Positions 27,960 to 53,314 of a DNA stretch of 64,000 nucleotides are shown here, in pieces. The first letter of the stretch is position 1; each line of letters begins with the position of its first letter. A program made the translations under genes and the position numbers. This DNA comes from Asticcacaulis sp. ZE23SCel15 (GTDB lineage Bacteria; Pseudomonadota; Alphaproteobacteria; Caulobacterales; Caulobacteraceae), in the NCBI RefSeq assembly GCF_030505395.1, contig NZ_CP130044.1:1597001-1661000 (forward strand). The letters are read 5' to 3'. The notes under the pieces are model-generated. The model saw only the letters and a program-made list of their open reading frames with translations. It did no database searches and had not been told where the DNA came from.

Positions 27960-28948
27960 CTAAGATAACGCCCGGACTATGGCCGTCTTTAACCGGCGGA
28001 TCAGTCCGGGCGTCAGATTGCCTAACACGCCTTTGTCGTGGGGGCGCAGATGGGCGGTCGGGTCGCCATGACTGCCGAAGATGTAGTAGTCGAACATTGT
28101 CTTCCACAGGCCGCGCTGATCCTTCGGTAGGTCACGTATGGCCAGCATGGCATGATACAGCGCCTCATAGGGAGCGGCGGGCTGGGCGGCTTCGTTCCAC
28201 CAGTAATTGACCATGATATTGACCGCACTCAGCGAATGAACCTGATGCCACCAGCCGTAAGGTATATAGAGCGCATCCCCCGGTTCCAGCTCAACCGTGA
28301 TCATCTGTGCCTTTGCCTCGGCAAAGCGCGGATGGCGCTCCAGGTCAGGGTTTTCGATATCGACCATGCTGACCGGTACGCCGCCAATGGTGCGGTCGAA
28401 AGGGCCGGGATAGAGATTAACCACCTGTTCCGGCGGGAACAAGTGAAAGCGGCGCTGGCCCGCCACCACGCAGGCGACATTATAATTCAGATCGTTATGG
28501 GCCCGCGTCACCACGCCGTTACCGATCCAGATGCGCGGCTCCACGTCTGGCAGGATGTCGAGGCGGTTTTCCACGCCAAAGCCCGGCATGTGCTTTGAAA
28601 TGATCGCGGACTGAAGGCTGATGCCCTGCGGGTGAGGATTATCGCGCGCCTTAAGGATTTCAGCCAGGATTTGCGGGATCGGCGCTGGGCCATGGCTGAA
28701 ATTATAGGACTGAGTGTCCATGCCATAAAATAGCCGCCCCTGCGCCTGCGGTGGTGCCACATACACCCCGGCGGGTTCGCCGGTGTCGTGGCGGTTTATA
28801 TAGTCAATGACGGCCTCATCTGAGTGTTGCGCCCTCTGAACGGCGGGCCAGTGCGCGACCTGCGCCCTGAGCACGGCCGGGTCGCCTCACGCCGAATTTG
28901 GTTGAACCGGTCCGGTGTAACGTCACGATATTCTTTTAGATCCGGCAT
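27960..28948 (-). pseudogene. Frameshifted cupin-like (JmjC/Cupin_8, 'pass1'-type) gene
   Basis: The main frame (27960-28874) encodes a Cupin_8/JmjC-like iron oxygenase: TRAHNDLNYNVACVVAG holds the His-X-Asp pair, and GDALYIPYGWWHQVHSL holds the distal histidine. Its normal N-terminus (MPDLKEYRDVTPDRFNQIRRE) is found in the next frame from ATG 28948, which has a good AGGA site. The two join at about 28883-28890; adding one G to a GG run there restores a continuous protein. A TGA lies in frame just before the GTG at 28874. Either a one-base deletion or a sequencing error explains this. Confidence 0.75.
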
Positions 28949-29035: not shown

Positions 29036-29051
29036 ATTGTATATGTTATGA
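29036..29051. promoter_or_regulatory. ATTGTATACGGTATA-like site upstream of the TonB receptor
   Basis: ATTGTATATGTTATGA matches the site at 36544-36560 at 13 of 16 positions. It lies about 130 bp before the receptor gene. It is the weakest of the four copies. Confidence 0.4.
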
Positions 29052-29179
29052 AGCAAGATCGTATAATTTATAATTGACGTGTCGCCAATACGGTGGTTCT
29101 GTCCCGATTGTGTCAGAAATATTGCACCCTCGCTTTGGGCGACGGGTAGCGTATCGCCTATAAGCATAAGGGGATTTTT

Positions 29180-32140
29180 ATGCAAATCAGTAAGAAACGT
29201 GCCTTAATGTTAGCCGGAGCGGCCTTTTCGGCCCTGCTCACCGGCCTTTCGGCGGCTCCTGTGTTTGCGCAGGATGCCCCTGCGGAACCGGCCGCCGAAG
29301 AGGCAGTCCAGGAAGTGGTTGTCACGGGTACGCGTATCCGCCGTCCGAACCTCAAGAGCGCCTCACCGATCACCACGGTCGATGCTGCCGAAGTCAAGCT
29401 TCAAGGCGCCACCGGCGTTGATAGCTTCCTCGCCAAGCTGCCGCAGATCGAAGCCGGCAATAACGAAAACCAGTCGAATAACTCCGATGGCACCGCAGGC
29501 GTTAACCTGCGTAGCCTGGGCGGCAACCGTGCGCTGGTGCTGATCGATGGTCAGCGTTTCTTGCCCACCCTGGGTGTCGACCTGAACTTTGTGCCGTCAA
29601 CTCTGGTTGAGCGCACGGACGTGCTGACCGGTGGTGCGTCATCGGTTTACGGCTCTGACGCCATGTCGGGTGTTGTCAACTTCATCATGCGCAAGAAGCT
29701 GAACGGCGTGCGCGTCGATGCGCAATACAGCATCTATAACCACCATAACGACAACGACGGCCTGCGAACAATTCAGGCCAATAAAGGCATTGAACTGGCT
29801 GACAATCACGTTTGGGATGGTGAAAAGTACGACTTCAACATTGCGGCCGGTGGCGACGTCGACGACGGCAAGGGTAATATCACCGGCTACTTCGGCTACC
29901 GCAAGATGGAAGCTGTCCGGCAGGATTCCCGCGACTATTCTAACTGCGCCCTCGAATTCAACGATCCGGCGGGCGGCTCGTTCCGCTGCGGTGGGTCGGG
30001 TACGCACGCTTATGGTTGGTTCGCACCGCAAAGCGGTCCGAGCAACGGTCTGCAACTGGCTAACGCCAAGGATGGCTCCAAGGCCTGGGTCACCAATGAT
30101 TTGTCGTTTGCCTATAACTATGCGCCGGACAATTACACCCTGCGTAACTCCGAGCGTTATCAGGCCGGTGCATTCGCCAACTATATGTTCAATGATCATG
30201 CCGAAGTCTATGGCAGCTTCATGTTCATGGATGATCACTCGATCAGCCAGGTGGCTCCTTCGGCTATCTGGTCGGGCCGTGACTTCACCATTAACTGCGC
30301 CAACCCGTTCATGAGCGCCCAGCAGGGTAACCTGTTGTGTGGTTCCAATTACGGAAATGCCGGTGTGGATATGACCACCTGGGCGTCCTACCGTGCCGCC
30401 ACCGGTGAGCCGCGCCGCAATGATATGCGTCACACCAACTACCGCTTCACGGCAGGCCTGCGTGGCGATATCGTAGAAGGCTGGAGATACGACGCCAACT
30501 ACATGCACGCGACCACGATCGGTCAGTTCAACTACCAGAACGACATCAATCAGGACAAGGCTGAGCAGGCCCTGAACGCTGTGACGCGCAATGGTCAAAC
30601 CGTCTGTTTTGATGAGTTGAATAACTGTAAGCCTTTCGATATTTTCAGCGCCAATGGCCCATCAGCCGAAGCCTATGCCTTCGTTTATGCGCCGACCTTT
30701 ACGCGCAATGAGCAGACTATCGACGTCTTCAACGCCTATGTCAGCGGTGATCTGGGCCAGTATGGCATCACCTCGCCTTGGGCAGAAGATGGTCTGGCGA
30801 TCGTTCTGGGGGCTGAGCACCGCAAGGAATTGCTTGATGAACGCCGTGACGAAAGCCAGCTTTCCTATGCGTCTAACGCGGATGGTAAGGTGTCTGCCGA
30901 TGAATGGTTCACTGAAATCGAAGTGCCGATCGTGTCGGATAAGCCTTTTATCCGCTCTTTGAACGCCTCTGTTGGCTATCGTAGTTCGACCTATAATGTT
31001 TCGTCGTCGACCTCGGAAGGCAGCGAAAAGAAGACTGAGACCTCCAAGTTCGAAGTCCGCTACGCCCCGACCAGCGATATCCTGTTCCGCGCCAGCTACA
31101 ATAAAGCCATGCGCGCTGCGAATATCACCGAACTGTTCGCCTCTCAGGCGGTCGGCAACGTCGCTCTGATCGATCCATGTTCGGTTAGCCAGATTGGGGC
31201 ATTGGGCGCCAATGCTGCGACCTTGTGTGCCCGTACGGGGGCGACCCCGGCACAACTGGCTGTCGGCATCATCGATACGCAGGCTGACGTCGGTACGGCA
31301 CTGGGCGGCGGTAACCCTGACCTGAGCCCAGAAGAAGCCGAAACCACGACTTATGGTTTCGTCTTTACGCCGGGCTTCGTTCCGGGACTGGCGCTGAGCG
31401 TGGACTATTATGAAATCCATATCGATGGCTATATCGGTTCGGTTCAGGCCCAAACAGCGGTTTCCCAGTGTCTGAACACAGGCGATGCCTTCTACTGTGG
31501 TCTGATCCGTCGTAACCCGAACAATGGCGCACTGTATGGCAGCGATACCAGCGGCGGCTATGTGATCTCGACGAACGTCAACACCGGCTATCTGGAAACC
31601 AAAGGCATCGACTTTTCGGGTAGCTACCTTTGGACGGCGGGTTTCGGCAACGTAAACTTCTCGTTCGTGGGCACGCTGCTTGATTCCCTCGAAACTGAAG
31701 TGCTGCCGGGTCTGGGTTCCTATGACTGTAAGGGTTACTACGGTGCCACCTGCGGTCAGCCGTCTCCGGAATGGCGTCACAATCTGCGCGCCACCTGGAC
31801 CGTGCCGGGCGACAAGATCTGGGCCCCGACCACCGTGTCGATCAACTGGCGTCACTTTGGTGAGACCAAGCTGTCTACCAACAGCGACGATCAGTACCTG
31901 ACCGGCACCAAGTCGACCCTCAATGCCGAGATTAAGCCGTACAACTACATTGATATCGCTGTGACCAAGGACCTGCCTTACGGTCTGGTGGCCCGCGCCG
32001 GTATCAACAACCTGTTCGACAAGGACCCGCCTTCGATCATGGGTGGTCTGCTGGCTGAAAACGGCAACGGCAACACCTTCCCCAGCACCTACGACCCATT
32101 GGGCCGTATGCTGTTCATCGGGATTTCGTCCAAGTTCTAA
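29180..32140 (+). CDS. TonB-dependent outer membrane receptor
   Basis: A 986-residue receptor for active uptake across the outer membrane. A signal peptide ends near PVFAQ (about residue 31). The TonB box region is EVVVTGTRIRR; the plug domain follows (VNLRSLGGNRALVLIDGQRFLP to GASSVYGSDAMSGVVNFIMRKK), then a long beta barrel ending in the aromatic tail LFIGISSKF. The type is that of the large carbohydrate-linked receptors of Caulobacterales and xanthomonads. AAGGGGA stands before the ATG. The neighbouring glycosidases and peptidases suggest that it imports glycan or glycopeptide pieces. Confidence 0.95.
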   Translation: MQISKKRALMLAGAAFSALLTGLSAAPVFAQDAPAEPAAEEAVQEVVVTGTRIRRPNLKSASPITTVDAAEVKLQGATGVDSFLAKLPQIEAGNNENQSNNSDGTAGVNLRSLGGNRALVLIDGQRFLPTLGVDLNFVPSTLVERTDVLTGGASSVYGSDAMSGVVNFIMRKKLNGVRVDAQYSIYNHHNDNDGLRTIQANKGIELADNHVWDGEKYDFNIAAGGDVDDGKGNITGYFGYRKMEAVRQDSRDYSNCALEFNDPAGGSFRCGGSGTHAYGWFAPQSGPSNGLQLANAKDGSKAWVTNDLSFAYNYAPDNYTLRNSERYQAGAFANYMFNDHAEVYGSFMFMDDHSISQVAPSAIWSGRDFTINCANPFMSAQQGNLLCGSNYGNAGVDMTTWASYRAATGEPRRNDMRHTNYRFTAGLRGDIVEGWRYDANYMHATTIGQFNYQNDINQDKAEQALNAVTRNGQTVCFDELNNCKPFDIFSANGPSAEAYAFVYAPTFTRNEQTIDVFNAYVSGDLGQYGITSPWAEDGLAIVLGAEHRKELLDERRDESQLSYASNADGKVSADEWFTEIEVPIVSDKPFIRSLNASVGYRSSTYNVSSSTSEGSEKKTETSKFEVRYAPTSDILFRASYNKAMRAANITELFASQAVGNVALIDPCSVSQIGALGANAATLCARTGATPAQLAVGIIDTQADVGTALGGGNPDLSPEEAETTTYGFVFTPGFVPGLALSVDYYEIHIDGYIGSVQAQTAVSQCLNTGDAFYCGLIRRNPNNGALYGSDTSGGYVISTNVNTGYLETKGIDFSGSYLWTAGFGNVNFSFVGTLLDSLETEVLPGLGSYDCKGYYGATCGQPSPEWRHNLRATWTVPGDKIWAPTTVSINWRHFGETKLSTNSDDQYLTGTKSTLNAEIKPYNYIDIAVTKDLPYGLVARAGINNLFDKDPPSIMGGLLAENGNGNTFPSTYDPLGRMLFIGISSKF

Positions 32141-32153
32141 TCTAATCCCCCGG

Positions 32154-32187
32154 AACGGGCGGGTAGCTTTGGCTACCTGCCCGTTTT
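32154..32187 (+). terminator. Terminator after the TonB receptor gene
   Basis: AACGGGCGGGTAGC pairs with GCTACCTGCCCGTT around a short TTTG loop, followed by TTTT. A second hairpin, TTTCAG-CCATC-TTT-GATGG-CTGAAA (32191-32218), follows at once and falls in the leader of the next gene. Confidence 0.85.
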
Positions 32188-32299
32188 ACGTTTCAGTCCA
32201 TCTTTGATGGGCCTGAAATCAAAGCGTCGGCATGCCAAAACGATTGAGGCACGTCCGGCGCTTTTTTATTTGCATCAGCATCAAACGTCGGAGGCCGGT

Positions 32300-34642
32300 A
32301 TGCCAGGCAGCTTTAATCGCCGCAGCTTTCTCAAAGGATCAACGCTGGCAGGGGTAGGCGTTGCCGCCGCAGCCCCTGTCGCCATCGCCGCCCCTAAGCT
32401 GTGGCCGGTTGATCAGGTATCGACGCAGGGGCAATCGCGCCTGTCGTCTTTCACGTCGGACGGTACGCAATGGACGGTCTATGAGGATCAGAGTTGCCGC
32501 GACGGCCCGATCAGCTTTGTCTCAACGAAGGGCGCATTTGCCCTCGATAAACGTCTGGCGGCCTGTTTTGACGATATAAAGCCGTCCTATCTGGGGCTGA
32601 CGCTCAAGGATATCTGTCTGGCGGATGCCGATCTTTTGGCCGATAAGCTGCTGGAAAGCGGTGATCCTGATCCGGAGCAGGTGCGTCGTGCCGCCCCGCC
32701 GCTGGGGTGGAACTATACGCGCGAATCCCTGTGGTGGCGGATGCCGTGGACCAATTTTGTCGGCACCCGCCAGCAGGGCGACACCATGCCGATCTTCCCC
32801 AACGGGCGCACCCGCGGCTACCGGCCGGAGCATGATTTTCCGGAACTGGAGGGCGATGACGGCGTGAAAACCCGCTGGGAAGGGTTGCTCGGCGGCTGGC
32901 TGCCCGCGATCCATAAGATCATTCAGGTGTCCGACACGCGCTATTACGACCTGCTGGTGTTTGCCGATGTTAAGGCCCCCGATGAGCTGTTGGTGCAAAC
33001 CTGGCACCGCACCGTGCAGTACGATAACGGTAAGGCCGTCAAGACCAGCTTTGGCTATTCGTACGCGCCGTTCCCGCCGCGCCGCACGCTGCCGAGCGCA
33101 GAAGACTTTTATGCGGCTCTGTTGGCTTTTGCCGGTTACTGGCAGAATGAGGTCAAGGATCAGGCGGCGGTGACCCTGCCGGATAAAGCCTTGGCGGATA
33201 TGGTCAGCCATGCCTTTGCCAAGGAACTGATCACCCGTCCGCGCGGGGTCTATCCCAAATACGGTGTCGTTGACCGCGACTACTTCGGGCCCGAATATGA
33301 CGGATTTCAGGATATTCTGACCTCATCGCTGTACGCCAATCTGGAGTGGGGTCGCTTCGATCAGGCCAAAGCCGTGTTGGAAAACTATTTCGATCAGTTT
33401 GTCTATGATGACGGCATGATCAATATGCGCGGACCGGAAGTGGCCCAGTTTGGCCTGACGTTGAGCTTGCTGGCGCGCTATCTGCATTACACCGGTGATC
33501 TGGCGACCCTTAAAAAATATGCCGGTAAGATCAGCAATACCGCCGTCCTGCTGACGGAAATGCATGATCTGAGCCTTAAGAAACCGGTGACTGATGCGGG
33601 TTTTGGCCTGATCGATGGCTGGAGCGAGTCCGATGCCTGCCTGCATCCGGACCCCAGCCTGTGGTGGAAGCCGTACTGGAACAATTCTTCGTTCACGATC
33701 CGGGGCTGGCGCGACATTGCGCGCGTCTGGGCGCTGATCAGCCCGGATCAGGCGGGGCAGGCCGCAGGCTGGAGCCAACGCGCCGATCAGTTGCAGGCCC
33801 AGTTGGTAAAGTCAGTGCGCGCCAATATCCGTCATGATCTGAAACCGGCCTATCTGGGTGTTTTGCCGGGCCTCAAGCAGACCCACCGTGAGGCCTTGGC
33901 CGAAGCGCGCGCTAAGAAACAACGCACAGAGCAAGGCTGGGCCCACCGGGTCTATGCTGAGTTGCTGCACGCAGATGTGCTGCCGGATGATCTTGCCAGC
34001 GTAGTCATCGACGCGGTGCGCGGTCATGGCGGCACTTCGATTGGTGTGCTGGCCAACTTCTCGCCAGCCAATGAAACCAACCGCGACCAGTTGGGCTTTA
34101 TATCCTATGGTTATGCCCAGCAATTGCTGCGCTCAGACCGTATCGAGGAATATCTGCTGTTCTTACATTCGCACCGCTATCATTCTCATACGCCGGGCAC
34201 CTGGGTGGCCGGTGAGGTGTCGGATATTGACGGTGGCCTGCCGCTCTATTGCGTACCGGCACAACTGACGATCCCAAAGCTGGTGCGTTGGGCGCTGGTG
34301 TTCGAGGCCTCCGATACCGACACGCTTTATCTGGGACGGGCGATCGCCCGTGACTGGATCGCATCGGGAGAACCTGTAGCCATAACGGGCGCGCCGACCC
34401 GCTGGGGTGCGGTTGATTTCAGTGTACAGGGGCAGGGGGCATCGATCCGCGGACGGGTGGCGTTTGCCGGTCAGTCGCGACCGAAAGAGGTTCATCTGCG
34501 GTTGCGGGTGCCCAAGGGTAAGACGCTGCGGCGGGTGCTGATTAACGGCAAATCCGCCCGTATCGTCGGGCGCGAAAAGGATACGGTGGTATTCTCACCG
34601 GCGGGTGTTGCGGCGTTTACGATTGAGGCGGAATTGGCCTAA
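32300..34642 (+). CDS. Tat-exported six-hairpin glycosidase-like protein
   Basis: About 780 residues. The N-terminus is a clear twin-arginine signal (NRRSFLKGSTLAG, ending near AIAAP). The middle part (about residues 270-620) has the repeated helical, tryptophan-rich look of an (alpha/alpha)6 barrel, with segments such as YDGFQDILTSSLYANLEWG, DGWSESDACLHPDPSLWWK and SPANETNRDQLGFISYGYAQ. Beta-rich regions stand on both sides. No family was named with certainty; a link to GH154-type beta-glucuronidases is only a guess. GGAGG (32290-32294) supports the ATG at 32300 over a longer frame from 32204. Confidence 0.6.
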   Translation: MPGSFNRRSFLKGSTLAGVGVAAAAPVAIAAPKLWPVDQVSTQGQSRLSSFTSDGTQWTVYEDQSCRDGPISFVSTKGAFALDKRLAACFDDIKPSYLGLTLKDICLADADLLADKLLESGDPDPEQVRRAAPPLGWNYTRESLWWRMPWTNFVGTRQQGDTMPIFPNGRTRGYRPEHDFPELEGDDGVKTRWEGLLGGWLPAIHKIIQVSDTRYYDLLVFADVKAPDELLVQTWHRTVQYDNGKAVKTSFGYSYAPFPPRRTLPSAEDFYAALLAFAGYWQNEVKDQAAVTLPDKALADMVSHAFAKELITRPRGVYPKYGVVDRDYFGPEYDGFQDILTSSLYANLEWGRFDQAKAVLENYFDQFVYDDGMINMRGPEVAQFGLTLSLLARYLHYTGDLATLKKYAGKISNTAVLLTEMHDLSLKKPVTDAGFGLIDGWSESDACLHPDPSLWWKPYWNNSSFTIRGWRDIARVWALISPDQAGQAAGWSQRADQLQAQLVKSVRANIRHDLKPAYLGVLPGLKQTHREALAEARAKKQRTEQGWAHRVYAELLHADVLPDDLASVVIDAVRGHGGTSIGVLANFSPANETNRDQLGFISYGYAQQLLRSDRIEEYLLFLHSHRYHSHTPGTWVAGEVSDIDGGLPLYCVPAQLTIPKLVRWALVFEASDTDTLYLGRAIARDWIASGEPVAITGAPTRWGAVDFSVQGQGASIRGRVAFAGQSRPKEVHLRLRVPKGKTLRRVLINGKSARIVGREKDTVVFSPAGVAAFTIEAELA

Positions 34643-34686
34643 AGCGCATCCCCAAAAGTGTCAGCGGTTTTGGGATCAAGATGCGC
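34641..34686. repeat. Dispersed palindromic repeat, copy 1
   Basis: GCGCATCCCCAAAA...TTTTGGGATCAAGATGCGC folds into a long hairpin. The core CAAAAGTG..AGCGGTTTT is shared with 42719-42771. It sits directly after the glycosidase-like gene. Confidence 0.6.
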
Positions 34687-34694
34687 GTTTATCT

Positions 34695-34727
34695 AAAAAA
34701 AAGAGGGGCTTTTCGGCCCCTCTTTTC
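34695..34727. terminator. Bidirectional terminator between convergent genes
   Basis: AAGAGGGGC pairs with GCCCCTCTT; A residues precede and T residues follow, so the element can end transcripts from both strands. It serves the glycosidase-like gene (plus) and the DUF885 gene (minus). Confidence 0.85.
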
Positions 34728-36504
34728 ATTTGTCATCGCTGTACGGACTTTTGCCGCCGTCCGCGATAAACTGATCGGTGCGCGTTTCAATCACCTGCAA
34801 AGGCACCGACCCCAGATCGAGCATGGCGTCGTGGAAATTGCGGATGTCGAACCTATTGCCCAGCGCGGCTTCGGCCCGGTGGCGGGCCTTCCAGATAGCC
34901 AGTTCGCCCATATAGTAGCTGAGCGCCTGACCCGGCGTATTGATATAACGATCCGTCTCGGTGGTGATCTCATGCTCACTAAGTGCGGTATTGTCGCGCA
35001 GGAAGACCAGGGCCTGATCACGCGTCCAGCCCTTGGCGTGCATGCCGGTATCGACCACCAGACGGCAGGCGCGCCACATCTGATAAGTCAGCATGCCGAA
35101 ATGTTCATAAGGGGTGTGGTACATGCCCATCTCGACCCCCAGCCGTTCGGCATACAGCGCCCAGCCTTCGCCATAAGCCGAGATATAGCCGTTCTGACGG
35201 AACTCCGGCAGGGTCTTGTTTTCCAGCGCGAATGGCATCTGCATGGCGTGGCCCGGTGCGCCTTCGTGCAACACCAAAGCGGGCAGGGTATAGAGCGGCC
35301 GGGACTTGAGATTATAGGTGTTGAGGATCAGAACCCCCGGCCCGCCATTGCCGCCGGTATTATAGGGGGCGATGGCTTCCGGCGTCGGGATAACGGCAAA
35401 GCGCTGACGCGGCAGACGGCCGAACCATGTGGCGGATTTGCCGTCAAATTCCTTTGAAATCCACGCGCCGCGATCAAGGAATTGCTGCGGCGTATCGACA
35501 TAGAACTGCGGGTCAGTGCGCAGGAAATCGTTGAATTCCTGTAACGTGCCGGAGAACTTGACCTGCTTCATGACCTCAAGCATTTCGGCCCTGATCTTGG
35601 CCACTTCGTCGAGTCCGATCCGATGTATCTGATCGGGTGCCATATCCAGGGTAACATATTCGCGGATCAGAGCCTGATAATAGTTTTTACCATCGGGCAG
35701 ATCATAGGCGGCAATGGTGGTGCGCGCCTTGGGCATATATTCGCGGCGCAAGAAAACCAGCAGTTTTTTGTGCGCAGGGATAACCTTATCGGTGATGGCC
35801 TGCACCCCCAGACGGCGTAATTCAGCCTGTGTCTCTGCGGAGATCGAGGCGGGCAGGGTTTTGAACGGCGCATAGAAATTAGTGTCCTCGACCGCCTTAC
35901 CCTCATAAGGGATGGATACCGACGAGTCGCGGCCATGAATAGAAATGCGCGACGGCGTAAAGCCGCGTTTCAGTCCCGCCTTGAGATTGTCCGTGCTCTG
36001 ATCAAAGAAGCGCGGCACGTCGTTCAGCCAGGCGATATAGCGCCGATACTCGGCTTCGGTGCGCAGGTTTTTGGGGATGCCCCAGCTCAGGCCGTTCCAG
36101 AAGCCGAAGTTCATCTCAAAATTGCGAAAATTCTGATCCGATAATTGCGTCTCTATTTGATGGCGGTAAACGATATAGTTGATCTGTTGTTCGTCGGACA
36201 GTGCCTTCGGATCGATGCGATCAAGGGCGGTCTTAACCTCACGCCACTTTTTCAGTTTGGCGTCCTGCGCCGCCTTTGAGACGTCGGGCAGGCGGTCCGG
36301 CGTTTCGTCATCTTCGCGCGGGCCAAGGCTTTTCCGCCATTCCCATTCGGCTTCATAAATGGCGGTGAAGGCTGCGTCAGGCGATACGGCGGCTGCCGTG
36401 TTTTCGGCAGCCGCAACCGTGGCCATCGTGCCTGAAAACAAACTGGTGGTCAGGTACAGGCTCATCAGCAGTGGGCGCACCGGTGTCGGGGGAACTAACG
36501 GCAT
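34726..36504 (-). CDS. DUF885-family protein, paralogue 1 (zinc metallopeptidase-like, exported)
   Basis: About 592 residues from the ATG at 36504; an N-terminal hydrophobic segment (PLLMSLYLTTSLFSGTMATVAAA) looks like a signal peptide. The key motif is LVLHEGAPGHAMQ, the HExxPGH zinc site of DUF885 proteins, followed by YGEGWALYAERLG with a further glutamate. These suggest gluzincin-like metallopeptidase activity, which is inferred. A longer frame to 36576 would cross the site at 36544-36560. A related gene is at 44003-45805; the two share most segments around the zinc site and the 'YRRYIAWLNDVPRFFDQ' type helix. Confidence 0.85.
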   Translation of the reverse strand: MPLVPPTPVRPLLMSLYLTTSLFSGTMATVAAAENTAAAVSPDAAFTAIYEAEWEWRKSLGPREDDETPDRLPDVSKAAQDAKLKKWREVKTALDRIDPKALSDEQQINYIVYRHQIETQLSDQNFRNFEMNFGFWNGLSWGIPKNLRTEAEYRRYIAWLNDVPRFFDQSTDNLKAGLKRGFTPSRISIHGRDSSVSIPYEGKAVEDTNFYAPFKTLPASISAETQAELRRLGVQAITDKVIPAHKKLLVFLRREYMPKARTTIAAYDLPDGKNYYQALIREYVTLDMAPDQIHRIGLDEVAKIRAEMLEVMKQVKFSGTLQEFNDFLRTDPQFYVDTPQQFLDRGAWISKEFDGKSATWFGRLPRQRFAVIPTPEAIAPYNTGGNGGPGVLILNTYNLKSRPLYTLPALVLHEGAPGHAMQMPFALENKTLPEFRQNGYISAYGEGWALYAERLGVEMGMYHTPYEHFGMLTYQMWRACRLVVDTGMHAKGWTRDQALVFLRDNTALSEHEITTETDRYINTPGQALSYYMGELAIWKARHRAEAALGNRFDIRNFHDAMLDLGSVPLQVIETRTDQFIADGGKSPYSDDK

Positions 36505-36543
36505 CTTTAGACTTGCCTCATGAAATATTACAGCTATGTTGAA

Positions 36544-36560
36544 ATTGTATACGGTATAAT
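36544..36560. promoter_or_regulatory. ATTGTATACGGTATAAT site between divergent DUF885 and GH127 genes
   Basis: A near-palindrome, with GTATAC followed by GGTATA. It stands midway between two divergent starts (36504 and 36600). Close relatives occur at 43951-43965, 56860-56877 and, weaker, at 29036-29051. The shape is like operators of GntR-family sugar regulators, but no such regulator is in the window. Confidence 0.6.
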
Positions 36561-36599
36561 TAATCCTGTGCAACATCCTTTGTCCGTGAGAGGCTTGCC

Positions 36600-42145
<5,546 letters not shown>

Positions 42146-42210
42146 GCGGAGGTCACAGCGGCGACACATTGCGGCCTGATGCTATGTTCCAAAGCTTCAT
42201 GAGGTCTGAG

Positions 42211-42720
42211 ATGATTAAGCTAGTGGCGGTTATGGGTGTGGCGGCGCTGGTTTTGGGTGGGTGCGCGGCCATGCCGATGGGTGGTGCGGCTCCTGATGCC
42301 ACCGAGACCTTGTCCGTATCGGTCGGGCCCTGCTTTGGGTTCTGCCCGGTCTATAAGGTGTCGGTGACGCCACAAGGTCTGGTTAGCTATGACGGTGAAC
42401 GTCACACAGCGGTTTTGGGGGCGCGCACCTTGGATAAGGGGCCGCGCGGTTATCGTGCTGTCAGTGAAAAGCTGTCGGCGTTCAAACCGGCCAGCGGACA
42501 CACGGCGGATACCCAGTGCGAGCAGCGCATCAGCGACCAGCAGCATTACCGCATTGTCTGGACCGCGGCCGATGGCACTGAAACCGTGCTTCAGCACGAC
42601 AAAGGCTGCCGCTCGCCCGCCAATGATCAGCTTAACAAGGTGCTGGAAAGCCTGCCGCAAACTCTGGGCATCAGCGACTGGGCCAAGCAGGAAACCCGCC
42701 CCGGTGTTTCACGCGGGTAA
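42211..42720 (+). CDS. DUF6438-like small lipoprotein
   Basis: About 169 residues with a lipobox (VLGGC). The mature part opens with GPCFGFCPVYKVSV, the typical cysteine-rich start of DUF6438 proteins, and has two more cysteines (DTQCEQR and DKGCRSP), so two disulfides are possible. Function unknown. The ATG at 42211 puts the signal peptide first and has GAGG upstream; the frame is open from 42169. It follows the GH2 gene by 65 bp and could be cotranscribed. Confidence 0.7.
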   Translation: MIKLVAVMGVAALVLGGCAAMPMGGAAPDATETLSVSVGPCFGFCPVYKVSVTPQGLVSYDGERHTAVLGARTLDKGPRGYRAVSEKLSAFKPASGHTADTQCEQRISDQQHYRIVWTAADGTETVLQHDKGCRSPANDQLNKVLESLPQTLGISDWAKQETRPGVSRG

Positions 42721-42771
42721 GCACTTTCCAAAAAGTGCGAAGCGGTTTTTGGACTCAAAAGTGCGACAAAA
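42719..42771. repeat. Dispersed palindromic repeat, copy 2
   Basis: GCACTTTCCAAAAAGTGCGAAGCGGTTTTTGG...AAAAGTGCG aligns with copy 1 at 34641-34686. Here it lies between the tail-to-tail DUF6438 and hydrolase genes. No T tract is present. Confidence 0.6.
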
Positions 42772-42780
42772 TAATCCTGA

Positions 42781-43881
42781 TTATTTCTGCGTCTTTTGCA
42801 GCAGGGCGGTCAGGTCATCTTTCCAGAACTTCGCCCAGGTATGGGTGCCGTGGCCGCGTGTGTCCGGTGACGACGGTATCAGGCGGTAGGTAACGCTGCT
42901 CAGGCGCGGCAGGGCTTTTTCCGGTATGCCCAACTCCGGCGGATTGATGAAGTCATCGCCGGAATTGATCCACACGGTTGGGGCTGTGATTTTTTCCAGC
43001 CCCGGCCACGGATTATAGGTGCGTGACGCGTCGAACTGATAGATGAAATCATTGGCATCGCGCGACGCAATATCCTTTTCAATCCGTTCACGGATATTGA
43101 CCTCAGCCTGCGCGCGCATCGGGAACTGGGCCTGAAGATATTCAGGCGCGCTGCCCGCCATGACCGATAGGGCCGCTGCGGTGCGCAGGCCCTGAATTGG
43201 CTGGGTTGTATAGTTGCCACCCTGCCAGGCGGGATCAGCGCGGATGGCATCCATGGCGGCGACGCGCCACATGCGGTTGCGGCCAGCGATCTCAACGGGC
43301 TGACACGCCATGGGCATGAGCGCTTCGGCAAAATCAGGGTGCGCCTCGGCCCACACAAAAATATGCATGCAGCCCATGGACGTGCCAAAGATCAGCCGCA
43401 GATGGTCGATCTTAAGCGCGCTTTTCAGCATCTGGCGCTGGGCTTCGACCATGTCGTCATAGTCATATTTCGGGAACGCCATGCGCAACCCGTCGCTGGG
43501 TTTAGACGACGCGCCATGACCGATATTGTCGGGTAGGATGATGAAATAGCGGCTGATATCGAGCGGCTGACCGGGGCCATATAACTCATCAGCAAACTGC
43601 GGCACCAGAAACTGCGCGCCTGAGCCGCCGGTGCCGTGCAGGATCATAACCGCATTATCGACCTGACCTTTGGCATCATAGTGCGGCGTACCTAGGGTGC
43701 GGTAATTCATTTTAAGTTCGGCTAAGGTTTCACCGGACTTGAAGCGGAAATCTTTCAGGGTCACGCTGGCCTGCTTGGCGGCACTGGCATCAAAGGCCAT
43801 GACGGGTGTGGTGACCAAAACGGCCCCGATCAGAGCGGTAGCCAGATGTACTTTGAAGGATTTCAACCTCAGTTTGGTCAT
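42781..43881 (-). CDS. Exported alpha/beta hydrolase of the MetX-like type
   Basis: A 366-residue alpha/beta-hydrolase. The signal peptide (HLATALIGAVLVTTPVMAF) puts it in the periplasm, unlike cytoplasmic homoserine acetyltransferase, whose fold it shares. The nucleophile elbow is FGTSMGCMH, the oxyanion region ILHGTGGSGAQFL, the late aspartate is near NSGDDFINPP and the histidine in RGHGTHTW. The natural reaction is unknown; an esterase or deacetylase role on the locus substrate is a guess. It diverges from the second DUF885 gene across the GTATAC-type site. Confidence 0.78.
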   Translation of the reverse strand: MTKLRLKSFKVHLATALIGAVLVTTPVMAFDASAAKQASVTLKDFRFKSGETLAELKMNYRTLGTPHYDAKGQVDNAVMILHGTGGSGAQFLVPQFADELYGPGQPLDISRYFIILPDNIGHGASSKPSDGLRMAFPKYDYDDMVEAQRQMLKSALKIDHLRLIFGTSMGCMHIFVWAEAHPDFAEALMPMACQPVEIAGRNRMWRVAAMDAIRADPAWQGGNYTTQPIQGLRTAAALSVMAGSAPEYLQAQFPMRAQAEVNIRERIEKDIASRDANDFIYQFDASRTYNPWPGLEKITAPTVWINSGDDFINPPELGIPEKALPRLSSVTYRLIPSSPDTRGHGTHTWAKFWKDDLTALLQKTQK

Positions 43882-43950
43882 GACAGGCTCCGGTAAGCGG
43901 TTGCGTGATAAAAGACGCGTGAACGGGCGGGCTAAGTGTTGACATCAAAG

Positions 43951-43965
43951 TATATCGTATACAAC
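43951..43965. promoter_or_regulatory. GTTGTATACGATATA site (minus orientation)
   Basis: Read on the minus strand it matches the 36544-36560 site closely. An extra ATTGTATG half follows in the same orientation, at 43966-43973. It stands between the divergent MetX-like (43881) and DUF885 (44003) genes. Confidence 0.6.
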
Positions 43966-44002
43966 ATACAATTCAGTGATGTTCAAACAGGTGGCAGGGA
44001 TT

Positions 44003-45805
44003 ATGGCGCGATCAGCAGTTTCACTTTTTCTGGGTTTGGTGTGCGCGGTCTCTCCGCTAGTCCTATCTCAGCCCGCTTTGGCGCAGATAGCAAGCCCGCC
44101 AACGGCTCAAGCGGGGCAAACCGCCGATCAGCGCCTGAAAGCGCTCTATGAGGCCGAGTGGACCTGGCGTCAGGCGGAGTATGGCCGGTCCGGGCCGGGC
44201 AGGGGCGCAAGTTCGGATAAACTGCCCAGCGTCACGCCACAAACCTATGCCCGCCGTCTGGCCTATTGGGATAAGGTGCTGGCCGAACTGAACACTATGC
44301 CGGTGGCGCAGTTGTCGCATGATGAAAAGATCAATTACGATGTGTTTCTGGCGTCGGTATCCGCCGAAGCCAATCAGATCCGCTTCAAGACCTATGAGGC
44401 GCCGTTCAATTCCGACAGCTTTTTCTGGACCGGCATGAACCCGCGCACGCCGTACCGTACGGCGGAGGACTATCGCAAATACTTAAGCCGCATGAAGGAC
44501 ATCCCGCGCTATTTCGATGAGAACAACGTCAATATGAAGGCGGGCCTCAAGCGTGGCTGGACCGTGCCCTATGTTTCGACCATCGGCCGCGAAAAGACGA
44601 TGGAAGCCTACACCAAGGCTGACACGACCAATCCGTTTTATGAAGCCTTTGCCCAAATGCCGGACACGGTGCCTGCTGCTGAGGCCGCCGCGTTGAAGGC
44701 TGAAGCCCAGACCGTCATTCGCGATACGGTCGCCCCCGCCTATGTCAAGCTGCATACCTTTTTCACCAAGGAATATCAGCCCAAGGCGCGGCGTGATATC
44801 GCGGCCTACAGCCTGCCGGACGGCAAGGCCTTTTACAAAGCGCGGATGCAGGAGTTCATTACCCTCGACCTGACGCCCGATGAGGTACACCAGATCGGCC
44901 TGAAAGAAGTCGCCCGTATCCGCGCCGACATGGAACAGACCATGAAGGATTCAGGCTTTACCGGCACCTTCCCGGAGTTTCTGGTGTTCATGCGTACCGA
45001 TCCGCAATTCTATGCCAAAACCCCGCGTGAACTGTTGTCCTATTCGGCCTATGTGTCGAAAAAAGCCGATGGAAAACTAAAGGATTTCTTCAACGTCCTG
45101 CCGCGTTATCGCCATGCCATTTTGCCGGTGCCGGATGCGGTCGCCCCCATCTATACGTCGGGTCGTGGCGGTCTCGATAGCTGCCTGATGAACACCTACG
45201 ACCTGCCGTCGCGACCGCTTTATAACCTTGCGGCCCTTACCCTGCATGAATGTACGCCGGGCCACAGCTATCAGGCGGCGGCTGCTTTGGAAGCCCCGCC
45301 ACGGCCTGATTTTAGGCGCGGCACCGGCTTTTCCGGCTATGGCGAAGGCTGGGGGCTCTATACCGAATGGCTGGGCACCAAGATGGGCATTTACGAAACC
45401 CCCTATGAGGAGTTTGGCCGTCAGACCTTTGAGATGTGGCGCGCCGTGCGTCTGGTGATCGACACCGGTATGCACACCAAGGGCTGGACCCGTCAGCAGG
45501 CGATGGATTACCTGACCGAAAATACCGCTCTGGCCCCGCTTGATATCAAAAACGAGATCGATCGCTATATCGCCTGGCCCGCGCAGGCTCTGGCTTACAA
45601 GCTGGGCGAGCTTAAGATGCGTGAGATGCGTAGTTTAGCTGAGGCCGAGCTGGGCACCGATTTCGATCAGCGCACCTTCCACGACACGATCCTCAATATG
45701 GGCTCAGTGCCGCTGACGACCTTTGAGGCGGAAATGAAAGCCTATATCGCCGCTGAAAAAGTTCGTGTGCAAACTAAAGCCACGACAACACCTGTGGCCA
45801 ACTGA
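44003..45805 (+). CDS. DUF885-family protein, paralogue 2 (zinc metallopeptidase-like, exported)
   Basis: About 600 residues. A signal peptide runs from MARSAVSLFLGLVCAV to about ALAQ. The zinc motif is LTLHECTPGHSYQ, followed by YGEGWGLYTEWLG, in the same layout as the paralogue at 34726-36504. The ATG at 44003 has AGGGA before it; GTG 43976 and ATG 43979 extend the frame. Its stop overlaps the start of the S9 peptidase gene, so two peptidase-type proteins are made as a pair. Peptidase activity is inferred from the motif. Confidence 0.86.
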   Translation: MARSAVSLFLGLVCAVSPLVLSQPALAQIASPPTAQAGQTADQRLKALYEAEWTWRQAEYGRSGPGRGASSDKLPSVTPQTYARRLAYWDKVLAELNTMPVAQLSHDEKINYDVFLASVSAEANQIRFKTYEAPFNSDSFFWTGMNPRTPYRTAEDYRKYLSRMKDIPRYFDENNVNMKAGLKRGWTVPYVSTIGREKTMEAYTKADTTNPFYEAFAQMPDTVPAAEAAALKAEAQTVIRDTVAPAYVKLHTFFTKEYQPKARRDIAAYSLPDGKAFYKARMQEFITLDLTPDEVHQIGLKEVARIRADMEQTMKDSGFTGTFPEFLVFMRTDPQFYAKTPRELLSYSAYVSKKADGKLKDFFNVLPRYRHAILPVPDAVAPIYTSGRGGLDSCLMNTYDLPSRPLYNLAALTLHECTPGHSYQAAAALEAPPRPDFRRGTGFSGYGEGWGLYTEWLGTKMGIYETPYEEFGRQTFEMWRAVRLVIDTGMHTKGWTRQQAMDYLTENTALAPLDIKNEIDRYIAWPAQALAYKLGELKMREMRSLAEAELGTDFDQRTFHDTILNMGSVPLTTFEAEMKAYIAAEKVRVQTKATTTPVAN

Positions 45806-45819
45806 TGTCTGGATCATCC

Positions 45820-48153
45820 ATGAAAAAATACTTGGGCGCGGTGGCTGTGGCCGCCTTAACGCTGGCGTTTGCAGCCCCTGTCATGGCCGCAGCCCCGACG
45901 GTCAGCGATTACGAACGCTCGATCGGCCTACGCGAAGCCTGGGTCGGTTTTGCGCAAAATATCGCCGAACCCGGTCACTGGATTGAGGGGACGCACAAGT
46001 ACGTCTACCGCCGTACCGTTCCGGGCGGATTTGAATTTGTCATGCTGGATGCCGATACCCAAACCAAGGCTCCGGCCTTTGATCATAACCGGCTGGCGGC
46101 AGCGTACACTAAGGCGATGGGTAAAACCTATAGCGGACTAAAACTGCCGTTCACTGAGAACTTCACCTCCATGCAGATGACCGATGCGCAGACGGTGAGC
46201 GCGCGGATCAGCGAAGTGACCTGGATATGCACGCTGTCGGATTATGTCTGCGCGCCGCAGGTCGATAAGCGTCAGCCGCGCGGCTTTGGGGTCGTCCGCG
46301 ACCTGAAAGTGCCTGCTGATAATACCCCCAAGCCGTCGCCCGATGGTCAGTTGCTGGCCTTTGTTCAGGGCTATAATATCGCGGTGCGGCCTGCTGCGGG
46401 TGGTGCAGTTACCGTCCTGTCGACCGATGGCTCAGAGGGTAATTTCTATGATCCGGAATTGATCGTCTGGTCGCCGGATTCGGGTAAGCTTGCGGCGTAT
46501 CGCGTCACCCCCGGTTTCCGCCGCGAAGTGACACGGGTGATCTCATCGCCGACTGATCAGGTTCAGCCCAAGGTCGATGTCCAGCTTTACCCCAAGCCCG
46601 GTGATGCCATCGATATCGACCGGCCGGTTCTGTTTGATGTGGCCGCCAAACGCCAGATCAATGTGCCGTTTGAGCTGTTTGCCAATCCCATGCAGATGGG
46701 CGACCTTAAGTGGCTGAAAAACAGCTCCGGCGTGCGTTTTGAGTTCGATCAGCGCGGTCATCAGGTTTACCGCCTGATTGAGATCGACGCCGCGTCGGGT
46801 AAGCCGCGCGTGGTCGCCGAAGACACCAGCAAAACCTTCATCAACAGCTATAGCCGCAGTTTGGCGCTGGATGTCGGCGGTGAGGGCAAAGAAGTCATCT
46901 GGATGTCAGAGCGCGATGGCTGGAACCATCTTTATCTTTATGACGCCAGGACGGGTAAGGTCAAAAACCAGATCACCAAGGGCGAATTTGTGGTGCGTCA
47001 GGTCATCAAGGTCGATGAGAAAACGCGCCAGATCTGGTTCGCCGCCAACGGGATGCGCACAGGTGAAGACCCGTATTTTCAGCACTATTACCGCATCGAT
47101 TTTGATGGCCGTAATCTGACGCCGATCACCAAAACCGACGCCTTTCACGATGTCGCGTTTTCATCGGACATGCAGTTCTATGTCGATACCTATTCGCGTG
47201 TGGATCAGGCCAATATTGCCAAGCTGCATAAGGTTGACGGAACGGAACTGGCGCAGCTTGAAACGCCCGATATTGCCCGGTTGCTGGCGGCTGGTTTCAA
47301 GCCACCGGAAGTGTTCGCCGCCAAGGGCCGTGACGGAAAAACCGATATCTGGGGGGTGATCGTCCGCCCGACCAATTTCGACCCTACTAAAAAATATCCG
47401 GTTATTGAAAACATCTATGCTGGCCCTCATTCGTCGTTTGTGCCCAAGACCTTCTGGCCGTTCGGGCCGCACTCCAGCGGCGATAAGGTCGTGGGGATGC
47501 AGGGATTGGCCGACATGGGCTTTATCGTCGTGCAGATCGACGGCATGGGCACGCTTAATCGTTCCAAAGCTTTCCACGATAAGGCGTGGAAAGACATTGG
47601 CGACACCGGCTTTCCTGACCGGATCGCGTGGCACAAGGCGGCCGCGGCTAAATACGCCTATTACGACATCAGCCGTGTTGGCATCTATGGTGGCTCGGCT
47701 GGCGGTCAGAACTCTTTAAGCGCGCTGGTGTTCCAGCCCGATTTCTATAAGGTCGCAGTTGCCTATGCCGGGTGCTTTGATAACCGCATGGACAAGATCG
47801 GCTGGAACGAAGCGTGGATGGGCTGGCCGATCGACGACAGCTATTCGCGCTCATCCGGCGTTGATAATGCCAAGAACATGACCGGCAATATCCTGCTGGT
47901 CACGGGCGAACTGGATATGAATGTCGATCCGGCCTCAACCCTGCAGGTCGTCAATGCCCTTATCAAGGCGCGTAAGGATTTTGATCTGCTGATCGTGCCG
48001 AACGACGGTCATGGCGCGCTTAGAACGACAGGCGATGTGTCCTACGGCCTGCGCCGCCAGTACGATTTCTTCATCCGCCACCTTCAGGGCGAGGTCACCC
48101 CGGACTGGAATGCCTTGCCGCAAACTGCCGCTAAACCGGCGATGGGAAAATAG
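45820..48153 (+). CDS. S9 family serine peptidase (dipeptidyl peptidase IV-like)
   Basis: About 777 residues with a signal peptide (KKYLGAVAVAALTLAFAAPVMAA). The N-terminal two thirds form a DPP-IV-type beta-propeller; the C-terminal alpha/beta-hydrolase domain holds the catalytic serine in YGGSAGGQ (about residue 626), the aspartate in TGELDMNVDP and the histidine in PNDGHGA. DPP-IV relatives cut after proline near the N-terminus of peptides. ATG 45805 overlaps the DUF885 stop; ATG 45820 begins at the signal peptide and has GGA upstream. Specificity is not proved by sequence. Confidence 0.9.
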   Translation: MKKYLGAVAVAALTLAFAAPVMAAAPTVSDYERSIGLREAWVGFAQNIAEPGHWIEGTHKYVYRRTVPGGFEFVMLDADTQTKAPAFDHNRLAAAYTKAMGKTYSGLKLPFTENFTSMQMTDAQTVSARISEVTWICTLSDYVCAPQVDKRQPRGFGVVRDLKVPADNTPKPSPDGQLLAFVQGYNIAVRPAAGGAVTVLSTDGSEGNFYDPELIVWSPDSGKLAAYRVTPGFRREVTRVISSPTDQVQPKVDVQLYPKPGDAIDIDRPVLFDVAAKRQINVPFELFANPMQMGDLKWLKNSSGVRFEFDQRGHQVYRLIEIDAASGKPRVVAEDTSKTFINSYSRSLALDVGGEGKEVIWMSERDGWNHLYLYDARTGKVKNQITKGEFVVRQVIKVDEKTRQIWFAANGMRTGEDPYFQHYYRIDFDGRNLTPITKTDAFHDVAFSSDMQFYVDTYSRVDQANIAKLHKVDGTELAQLETPDIARLLAAGFKPPEVFAAKGRDGKTDIWGVIVRPTNFDPTKKYPVIENIYAGPHSSFVPKTFWPFGPHSSGDKVVGMQGLADMGFIVVQIDGMGTLNRSKAFHDKAWKDIGDTGFPDRIAWHKAAAAKYAYYDISRVGIYGGSAGGQNSLSALVFQPDFYKVAVAYAGCFDNRMDKIGWNEAWMGWPIDDSYSRSSGVDNAKNMTGNILLVTGELDMNVDPASTLQVVNALIKARKDFDLLIVPNDGHGALRTTGDVSYGLRRQYDFFIRHLQGEVTPDWNALPQTAAKPAMGK

Positions 48154-48301
48154 GTTAAGGCGGGCTTCCCTGTATTGCTTGTGACGAGTGTGGATTATTT
48201 TCGCTTGATTTTGATCTAATTTGCGCGTTAATTTGTCCTATAATTAACGGCGATAATCGCTCAAAAAGGTAACAGGGATTCAGGAGATGATCAGGAAAGC
48301 T

Positions 48302-49723
48302 ATGCGCCATATGGCGCTGGCGGTAACGCTTTGTGCCGCCGTCATCACCGCTTCGACCGCACACGCGCAAACCAGCGCCCGTCAGCAAGAGCGCGAACGT
48401 CAGGCCGCTCTGATACGCGAACGCGATGCCGCCGAGGCGCTTAAGGTGACTGCCCGCCTGATCGAACAGAACCAGATGCCGTGTGAAATCACCGAGGCGG
48501 GTACCTTGCCCGCCGTCGAGATCGTGCAGGACGGTAAATCCGTGGCGGCGGATGTCTATGAGGTGGTCTGTAAGGATCAGCGCGGTTATGTGTTGCTGAG
48601 CGCGAAATCAAAACTGGTCGGCGATCCTATGGGCTGCCTGCAGGCCGCAGAACTGGCTAAGGCGTCGCCCGGCAGTCCGGTCTGTAAGCTTAAGGCCAAC
48701 CGCGCCGCCCATTACTGGCTGACGGATACGGCCAAAGCCAAAATCCCAAACTGTCAGATTGCCGGGGCGCGCTTCATCAGCCACAGCCCCGCCACCAATA
48801 CCGAAGTCTATGAGATCAGTTGCAAGGGCGTGTCTGGCGGCATTTTCACCGTCCCGACTCATAAGGCCACGGATAAAACCGTCGGCTATCTGAACTGCCT
48901 CAAAACCGCTGATACGGCGCTCAAATGCGAACTGACGACACAGGAACTGGCTACCCAGACCCTGAACCCTCTGGTCAAAAAGAACGTACCCGACTGTACG
49001 GTTGCCAATGCGCGCTTTGTGGGCGCCACCAAGGACGCCGAATATTATGAAATCGGCTGTCAGGGTAAGGCCGGTTTTGTGATGGTGACCGACCTTGACG
49101 CCGGTTTCAAGGCGACGGTCGGCTGCGATAAGGCGGCCTCGATCGGCGGCTGCAAATTCACCGATACGGCGGCTCTGGCGGCGGCGGGTAAGGCGAAGGC
49201 CGATGAAGCCAAGGCCAAATATCAGACGGCCTATACGCAGGCGCTGACGCAAAATAACGTCGCCTGTACCTTCAGCGATTTCCGTCGCGTCGGGCGCGAC
49301 AGCGCCACCAACCGCGATGTGGCAGAGTTCAAATGCCCGGAGGTCGCCCATGGCCTGATGGCGTTTATTCCTGATGCGGGCAAGTCGGAAAAGTTTGAGA
49401 GTTTCGACTGCTATGTGGCGACCGTCAATAAGCTCGACTGCGCGCTTACGACCGCCGATGAGCTTAAGGCCCATCTGCAAACCCTGTCGGTAGGTCACAA
49501 GTCGATCAAACCCGACTGCGTGATCGGTGAGGCCCGCTATGCCTTTGAAAACGCCGGGCAGGTGGTGATAGAAATCGCCTGCGTCAACACCCGTGGCTAT
49601 ATCGCTGTGCTGAACAAGGCGCGCACAGCGCTTAATCCGGCGGTGCCCTGCCATATCGCCGCCACCAATCCGGGCGTACCGGAAAAGTGCTCGATCAAGG
49701 GCAATGGTACTAAACAGGATTAA
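48302..49723 (+). CDS. Secreted protein with five cysteine-bearing repeats, function unknown
   Basis: About 473 residues, with a signal peptide (to THAQ). An alanine/arginine-rich helix follows, and then about five units of 80-90 residues, each with the pattern C-x-I/V-x-x-AR-F ... Y-E-I-x-C-x-x-x-x-G-x, then C-x-x-A ... C-x-L/F. Examples of the unit start are NCQIAGARFI, DCTVANARFV and DCVIGEARYA. The cysteines come in regular pairs, so a disulfide-bonded repeat protein is likely. No family recognised. ATG 48302 has AGGA at a good distance; ATG 48287 is also possible. It ends in a 4-bp tail-to-tail overlap with the antiporter gene. Confidence 0.75.
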   Translation: MRHMALAVTLCAAVITASTAHAQTSARQQERERQAALIRERDAAEALKVTARLIEQNQMPCEITEAGTLPAVEIVQDGKSVAADVYEVVCKDQRGYVLLSAKSKLVGDPMGCLQAAELAKASPGSPVCKLKANRAAHYWLTDTAKAKIPNCQIAGARFISHSPATNTEVYEISCKGVSGGIFTVPTHKATDKTVGYLNCLKTADTALKCELTTQELATQTLNPLVKKNVPDCTVANARFVGATKDAEYYEIGCQGKAGFVMVTDLDAGFKATVGCDKAASIGGCKFTDTAALAAAGKAKADEAKAKYQTAYTQALTQNNVACTFSDFRRVGRDSATNRDVAEFKCPEVAHGLMAFIPDAGKSEKFESFDCYVATVNKLDCALTTADELKAHLQTLSVGHKSIKPDCVIGEARYAFENAGQVVIEIACVNTRGYIAVLNKARTALNPAVPCHIAATNPGVPEKCSIKGNGTKQD

Positions 49724-53070: not shown

Positions 53071-53101
53071 GGGGAAAAGACTAGCATGTTTTGGCGTGCG
53101 T

Positions 53102-53256: not shown

Positions 53257-53291
53257 GTCAGAATTCATTATTCGCCATAATCGACCTCTGA

Positions 53292-53297
53292 TATAAT
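53292..53297 (+). promoter_or_regulatory. Candidate -10 box (TATAAT) of ogt
   Basis: A perfect -10 hexamer 17 bp before the ogt ATG; a start near 53304 would leave a short leader with GGAG. The -35 region is weak (around 53269-53274), as expected for a promoter needing an activator such as Ada. Confidence 0.5.
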
Positions 53298-53314
53298 CCT
53301 GCCCGGAGGCGCTT

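Follow-up and report, generated by a model that had tools for sequence, protein, structure and literature searches.

Can a single bacterial system dismantle both the glycan and the peptide of a plant structural glycoprotein? The question is raised by a stretch of 64,000 nucleotides from Asticcacaulis sp. ZE23SCel15 (the window, G000:C1:1597001-1661000; the genome, G000, is one contig of 3.77 Mb), in which an original prediction had placed a possible utilisation locus for extensins or arabinogalactan proteins (AGPs). The resistance of these hydroxyproline-rich glycoproteins (HRGPs) is thought to be due to the arabinose that shields the peptide, and to our knowledge their whole recycling by bacteria has hardly been described, the characterised systems taking arabinose only. 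We called genes from open reading frames (ORFs) and from Pfam and NCBIfam profile scans of the window, and every gene named by the prediction is present at positions 29180-48153: a TonB-dependent receptor (TBDR), a Tat-exported glycosidase-like protein (here TatX), a glycoside hydrolase (GH) of the GH127/GH146 kind, a GH2 enzyme, two DUF885 proteins and an S9 peptidase. We consider, with a probability of roughly 0.8, that the locus is one of the two parts of a regulon that uses HRGPs (extensin and/or AGP), glycan and peptide together, as a carbon/nitrogen source.

Gene neighbourhoods and the hydroxyproline module

The genes run in the order cupin_8 (-), TBDR (+), TatX (+), DUF885a (-), GH146-GH2 (+), DUF6438 (+), an alpha/beta-hydrolase (abH, -), DUF885b-S9 (+) and a 478-aa protein (+). 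Their strands divide the glycosidases and peptidases of the window among several transcription units rather than one operon. The predicted membership of the locus hence stands, but not its one-directional layout, as DUF885a and abH lie on the minus strand (Table 1); DUF6438 was missing from the predicted list. By layout alone the glycosidases and peptidases could be unrelated, and within the genus only cupin-TBDR-TatX is syntenic; this unrelatedness of the peptidases was overturned by the linkage and operator data that follow.

Relatives were compared in 25 genomes of the genus Asticcacaulis and 36 further genomes from its family or order. A second cluster occurs in G000 at C1:52-106 kb, with its hydroxyproline (Hyp) module at 77.8-82.4 kb, 1.5 Mb from the window; it also has two GntR-type genes, a permease, a DUF885 gene, two GH146 genes, a GH127-type enzyme and DUF5695. 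In one relative (G015) both parts form a single run of ~33 kb that includes every window gene from the cupin to S9 (GntR, Hyp epimerase, LhpC, oxidoreductase, prolidase, DUF885a, GH146, GH2, DUF6438, abH, DUF885b, S9, cupin, TBDR, TatX and permease), which matches the window genes at 58-86% identity and C1:77.8-82.4 kb at 64-92%. Judged from this gene order, the window looks like one of two parts of a split locus. The HRGP reading of the original prediction gains from the relatives, where the same genes are contiguous with a 4-hydroxyproline epimerase, an LhpC-type deaminase, a D-amino-acid-type oxidoreductase, an M24 prolidase and a permease. The pairing of GH127/GH146 with GH43 that marks HRGP arabinoside systems is found as the window GH146 and the GH43 of the second cluster.

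TatX was found in 17 of the 25 genus genomes and in 0 of the 36 searched genomes of the same family or order outside the genus. A wider scan of GTDB genomes yielded 80 TatX loci (56 full-length), which extend to Sphingomonas/Stakelama, Xanthomonas, Pseudoxanthomonas, Stenotrophomonas, Dyella, Rhodanobacter, Luteibacter and Acidobacteria, and their neighbour genes were evaluated by conservation scoring and tblastn. Besides TonB receptors, the commonest neighbours in the 80 loci are the window-type S9 (39 loci), DUF885 (38) and GH146 (34). These are followed by 4-hydroxyproline epimerase (PRK13971, 552 bits versus a cut-off of 376), a DapA-type (LhpC-like) enzyme, FAD oxidoreductases, aldehyde dehydrogenase and M24 prolidase, and further by amino-acid permeases, GH35 and GH43. 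A sensitive search of the 56 full-length loci recovered DPP/DUF885 homologues in 44 and a beta-L-arabinofuranosidase-type gene in 46, and at least two Hyp-catabolism genes are present in 13 of the 80 loci, among Alphaproteobacteria, Gammaproteobacteria and Acidobacteria. In Xanthomonas the order is TatX-TBDR-GH121-GH43, the 1464-aa neighbour being GH121 (6m5a, 1.4e-205). That glycosidases and peptidases belong together, as originally predicted, is borne out by this recurrence in Sphingomonas, Xanthomonadaceae and Acidobacteria.

Within the genus, a single-copy Hyp epimerase lies no more than 27 kb from TatX in 9/16 genomes and the S9 orthologue in 12/16 (~1.3% by chance in each case), and the S9 orthologue is present in 16/17 genomes with TatX versus 1/8 without, but these genomes are related by descent, so that the counts are not independent and the linkage p-values are overstated. 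More weight falls on the return of the same association in other classes and phyla. We also observed DUF5695 (~950 aa; G000:C1:85744-88515, L050:7155-10007) beside TatX at 16 loci of Sphingomonads and Acidobacteria; its promoter carries the operator described below in Stakelama.

The shared operator and the alternatives

Comparison of the promoters of both clusters revealed the palindrome TATACNRTATA, with 13 exact sites in the 3.77-Mb genome versus 3 for the reversed control pattern. The window contains 8 matches with at most one mismatch where 1.6 are expected, and 0/100 shuffles reach 8. A matrix trained solely on sites outside the window and scored over all window positions ranks 36548 first (24.9) and 43951 second, with the overlapping second copy at 43951..43968 in fourth place; both 36548 and 43951 are among the exact sites of the genome, and they belong to the DUF885a/GH146 and abH/DUF885b promoters. 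In the second cluster the operator is found in the GH146/DUF885, oxidoreductase/LhpC and 103-kb GH146 promoters, and elsewhere in G000 it precedes an Ldh_2 enzyme, a kind found in the loci of relatives, by 41 bp and a POT peptide transporter by 37 bp. Operator sites also stand upstream of the GntR genes (82510, 83410). The third-best window position, a perfect TATACGGTATA site at 56864-56874, lies upstream of a small thioesterase-like frame (~56982, +) with no evident regulon link. This site and those at 878319, 3492488 and 3639003, which have no convincing regulon gene, may be due to chance; many unlinked operator sites examined in relatives likewise have no recognised regulon gene.

Across the genus the operator precedes DUF885a in 8/8 cases, the locus-I DUF885 (DUF885i) in 11/11, DUF885b in 4/4, GH146 (three clades) in 21/23 and the LhpC-epimerase operon in 11/11. 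In 6/10 cases it stands directly before S9, which in G000, G013 and G015 is placed behind DUF885b. Distant paralogues in the same genomes have none: DUF885 0/13, GH146x 0/11 and the second S9 (DPP2) 0/11. G015 keeps the operator in the same DUF885a/GH146 promoter and before DUF885b (site at 369164), and it is retained in G003, G016 and G022 though some of their peptidases are on other contigs or far off. Among the matches listed, genomes bearing the epimerase have 5-15 distinct sites, while those lacking it have 1-2 sites (G010, G012 and G020) or three strand hits (G005). In Stakelama and one Sphingomonas locus the operator occurs at GH146, DUF885, S9/DUF5695 and LhpC. One rare operator thus stands before both kinds of unit; separate expression of peptidases and glycosidases, at which the layout hints, would be countered because they share it.

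The palindrome core GTATAC agrees with the pattern TKGT/ACMA of the FadR subfamily of GntR regulators (quoted in PMC6608401), and the GntR/FCD protein at C1:82597 is the putative binder of the palindrome. As judged by gene position, the arrangement of a HypR regulon is found here, namely a GntR/FCD gene beside Hyp catabolism with operators before LhpC and GntR. The operator may instead be read by a regulator responding to arabinose rather than hydroxyproline, with the peptidases as a minor appendage. The GH146 promoters, which are among its commonest carriers (21/23), would agree with this, but the sites before every LhpC-epimerase operon and upstream of the GntR genes, Ldh_2 and POT would not, and we consider it unlikely.

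An ordinary pectin/arabinan or galactan locus (GH146, GH2 and TBDR), with housekeeping peptidases unrelated to it close by, would be in line with the closest solved GH146 homologue (5opj/6yqh, which we take to be a pectic-arabinan enzyme), with the separate transcription units on opposite strands and with the variable presence of GH146. However, it leaves unexplained the joint occurrence of peptidases, GH146 and Hyp catabolism across phyla and the rare operator that distant paralogues lack, and arabinan does not need a hydroxyproline epimerase; this alternative seems quite improbable. Least probable is a regulon scavenging Hyp/Pro peptides from other sources, such as free peptides or proteins resembling collagen, whose glycosidases were recruited to deal with other arabinosides. 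Published HypR regulons do hold collagenases, prolidases and peptide permeases (PMC5343134, PMC6608401), but here several genes of beta-L-arabinofuranosidase type (GH146 twice, GH127-type and GH43) carry or follow the operator. The loci of Xanthomonas further contain GH121, a family with characterised members that cut the Ara3-Hyp of plant HRGPs (PMC6085000), and we noticed no collagenase in any of these loci.

Several observations, besides the shared descent of the genus genomes, weigh against a regulon for HRGPs. The window unit holds no hydroxyproline gene, and the only operator-like sites of the TBDR-TatX unit, at 29040 and 29062, are weak, ranking fifth and sixth with scores of 5.9 and 5.5, under the shuffled mean best of 8.0. 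Pectic arabinan is a substrate of GH146 members too, and a GH2 of the LacZ type is not diagnostic. Two close relatives lack GH146 in the cluster, and the Hyp epimerase occurs without TatX in four genomes (G007, G009, G014 and G017).

Enzymes of the locus and a possible route

The structure matches of the GH127-superfamily enzyme are best to 5opj/6yqh (1.5e-136), far closer than Bll3HypBA1 (2e-53) or HypBA1 (1e-13), and the predicted GH127/GH146 arabinofuranosidase is therefore of the GH146 type. E338, E356, C358, C425 and C426 are invariant in the alignment, as required for a Zn(Cys)3 site with a Cys nucleophile and a Glu acid/base, and presumably correspond to the catalytic residues of HypBA1. 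The GH2 protein is of the LacZ type (NF052611, 939 bits, under the curated cut-off of 999).

DUF885a and DUF885b match PF05960 with 508.9 and 480.6 bits (cut-off 32.4). Their conserved motif is HExxPGH, and a search for HExxH gave nothing in them; the invariant H437-E438-x-x-P-G-H443 with E470/E477 in DUF885a is suggestive of a metallopeptidase, a family for which no enzyme activity is on record in the literature searched. A 302-aa exported protein of the second cluster without a Pfam family (G000:C1:76328-77233) has an HEFSH (HExxH) motif, adjoins DUF885 and lies near the prolidase, with homologues beside DUF885 or prolidase in G015, G018, G021 and G024; by its motif it is a possible further metallopeptidase. 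In the S9 protein, S631, D704 and H736 align with the DPPIV triad and are invariant in 42 sequences. The predicted DPP-IV likeness accordingly holds for the S9/DPPIV_N family and the triad, but not for the Glu-Glu motif of dipeptidyl peptidase specificity, as FYDPEL is aligned to ADEEMD of 2ecf and no EE occurs anywhere in the protein. We have hence dropped the name DPP-IV and keep 'S9, DPPIV-like'. The S9 gene is broken (internal stop, split frame) in G009 (C1:1645438-1647783), which has no TatX, and in G013 (C1:1890124-1892470), pointing to decay of the system.

TatX has a twin-arginine motif (FNRRSFLKG); the TTG listed first as its start (32204) probably lies too far upstream, and MPGSFNRRSFLKG is likelier. 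No sequence matches were found in Pfam, the NCBIfam glycosidase models or the PDB. An AlphaFold2 (AF2) model from 44 sequences (predicted local distance difference test 89.3, predicted template-modelling score 0.90) has the six-hairpin (alpha/alpha)6 glycosidase fold with beta domains, the best Z being ~25 over ~310 residues of the catalytic part. Foldseek matches include GH94, rhamnosidases, GH127, GH121 and GH146, a fold common to many six-hairpin families. Assignment as a divergent GH146, GH121 or DUF5695 protein was rejected on the hhalign probabilities (26%, 0.6% and 0.1%), and by its model TatX is a glycosidase-like protein of six-hairpin fold without a Pfam family. A divergent paralogue (30-32% identity) in L043 (G008:C27, 11272-15252) is the immediate neighbour of a DUF885 homologue (30%); the main TatX of G008 is on a different contig.

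Export signals, predicted for all of these proteins, were seen by eye at each N-terminus, in DUF885a only after its start was moved to M25 or M38. For the 478-aa protein neither an operator in the upstream region nor a Pfam match was found. Farther on, window positions 51595-55205 hold a DNA alkylation repair cluster, an Ada/AlkA fusion with two 2OG-Fe(II) oxygenases (one AlkB-like).

Table 1. Features of the locus (window coordinates) and of the second cluster (contig coordinates, prefixed C1)
Feature	Position	Strand	Remarks
Two weak operator-like sites, TBDR promoter	29040..29072	.	starts 29040 and 29062, 22 bp apart
Cupin_8/JmjC-like protein	27960..28874	-	PF13621 1.6e-60; divergent from TBDR; synteny with TBDR-TatX across the genus
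TBDR, predicted outer-membrane uptake	29180..32140	+	PF00593 barrel and PF07715 plug
TatX, Tat-exported (alpha/alpha)6 glycosidase-like protein	32300..34642	+	812-aa ORF, twin-arginine motif, AF2 fold
DUF885a, putative exported metallopeptidase	34726..36576	-	PF05960 4e-152; start probably M25 or M38
Operator TATACGGTATA, divergent DUF885a/GH146 promoter	36548..36558	.	top-scoring window position
GH146-type beta-L-arabinofuranosidase with export signal	36600..39020	+	PF07944 2e-118
GH2 LacZ-type beta-galactosidase, exported	39017..42145	+	PF02836 and others; 4-nt overlap with GH146 stop
DUF6438 small lipoprotein-like protein	42169..42720	+	PF20033 2e-20
abH, exported, PRK06489-like	42781..43881	-	NF005071 504 bits
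Operator TATATCGTATA and overlapping second copy, divergent abH/DUF885b promoter	43951..43968	.	ahead of DUF885b-S9
DUF885b, putative exported metallopeptidase	43976..45805	+	PF05960 1.6e-143
S9 family DPPIV-like peptidase, exported	45805..48153	+	PF00930/PF00326; overlaps DUF885b stop
478-aa exported protein	48287..49723	+	no Pfam family; locus membership uncertain
GH43	C1:70454-72094		
M24 prolidase, FAD (D-amino-acid-type) oxidoreductase	within C1:77.8-82.4 kb		
LhpC-type deaminase	C1:80345-81256		
4-hydroxyproline epimerase	C1:81431-82444		
GntR/FCD regulator	C1:82597		beside epimerase
Melibiase-type (GH27-type) alpha-galactosidase	C1:90838-92340		

The genes, their recurrent association and the operator are consistent with a route whose substrate, cleaved linkages, repressor and flow would be as follows. 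Glycopeptide fragments may be imported by the TBDR, and arabinose and galactose stripped in the periplasm by GH146, TatX and GH2 together with the GH43, GH127-type and GH27-type enzymes of the second locus. The serine of extensins carries alpha-galactose, which the melibiase-type alpha-galactosidase would suit. The bared peptide would be cut by DUF885 and the S9 peptidase, di/tripeptides and hydroxyproline would be taken in by the POT transporter and the amino-acid permease, and the M24 prolidase would free hydroxyproline. This may pass through the 4-hydroxyproline epimerase, the D-amino-acid-type oxidoreductase, the LhpC-type deaminase and the aldehyde dehydrogenase to 2-oxoglutarate. A HypR-type GntR/FCD repressor coded beside the epimerase likely reads TATACNRTATA.

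The catalytic domain of GH121 was not found in G000, where matches reach only its C-terminal accessory domains. A candidate for cutting Ara3-Hyp in G000 is TatX, although Xanthomonas has it together with GH121. A wider proposal is more tentative, its parts being somewhat less likely to hold together than to fail: that TatX represents an unclassified (alpha/alpha)6 GH family for a Hyp-linked plant glycan linkage, that the operator-linked DUF885 clades are Hyp/Pro-directed metallopeptidases, and that a HypR-like regulon, whose gene sets recur in Alphaproteobacteria, Gammaproteobacteria and Acidobacteria, takes a plant structural glycoprotein wholly apart, sugar as well as protein.

Relation to known systems

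We found no description of a regulon joining beta-L-arabinofuranosidases, peptidases and Hyp catabolism, nor literature linking the hydroxyproline epimerase with extensin, in a search of mostly freely accessible literature. The novelty claimed for a locus taking both glycan and peptide thus seems to survive in its plant-glycoprotein version, but it is preceded by the prolyl oligopeptidase gene already noted adjacent to the Xanthomonas hyp genes (PMC6085000) and by the protease regulons of HypR (PMC5343134, PMC6608401). If the regulon is true, the Xanthomonas enzymes, so far without an evident role, would gain a nutritional purpose, DUF885 proteins a suggested role and TatX a nomination as a possible new glycosidase family, and the operator supplies a DNA signature for finding more members.

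The closest parallels are xehypBA1/xehypBA2/xehypAA of Xanthomonas euvesicatoria (GH127, GH121 and GH43), characterised on Hyp-arabinosides by Nakamura et al. (PMC6085000), and HypBA1/BA2/AA of Bifidobacterium longum, which like the window have beta-L-arabinofuranosidase-family enzymes. In Xanthomonas, TatX and its TBDR lie directly beside two of the three known Hyp-arabinoside families, GH121 and GH43. Unlike these systems, G000 is without the GH121 catalytic domain, and its operator ties in two DUF885 proteins, S9, prolidase, Hyp catabolism and a peptide transporter.

HypR regulons are known in Sinorhizobium, Shewanella and Streptomyces, with collagenases, prolidases and a di/tripeptide permease (PMC5343134, PMC6608401). 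They resemble G000 in that a GntR-family regulator adjoins Hyp catabolism and in their reach to proteases, prolidases and the di/tripeptide permease, but they target collagen or proline, none is described with beta-L-arabinofuranosidases, and the Streptomyces HypR site is CTNTGC(A/C)ATGTCAC, in contrast to TATACNRTATA in G000. HRGP degradation has also been proposed in silico for Latescibacteria from GH127, other glycosidases and cell-wall proteases; as far as the consulted part of that source goes, this is a genome inventory without a locus, regulatory link or hydroxyproline route, unlike G000 (PMC4454575). Finally, TonB-dependent utilisation loci (polysaccharide utilisation loci, PUL, and carbohydrate utilisation loci containing TonB-dependent receptors, CUT) resemble the window in gene content, namely a TBDR with exported glycosidases, whereas in G000 peptidases and a pathway of amino-acid catabolism would also be members of the regulon.

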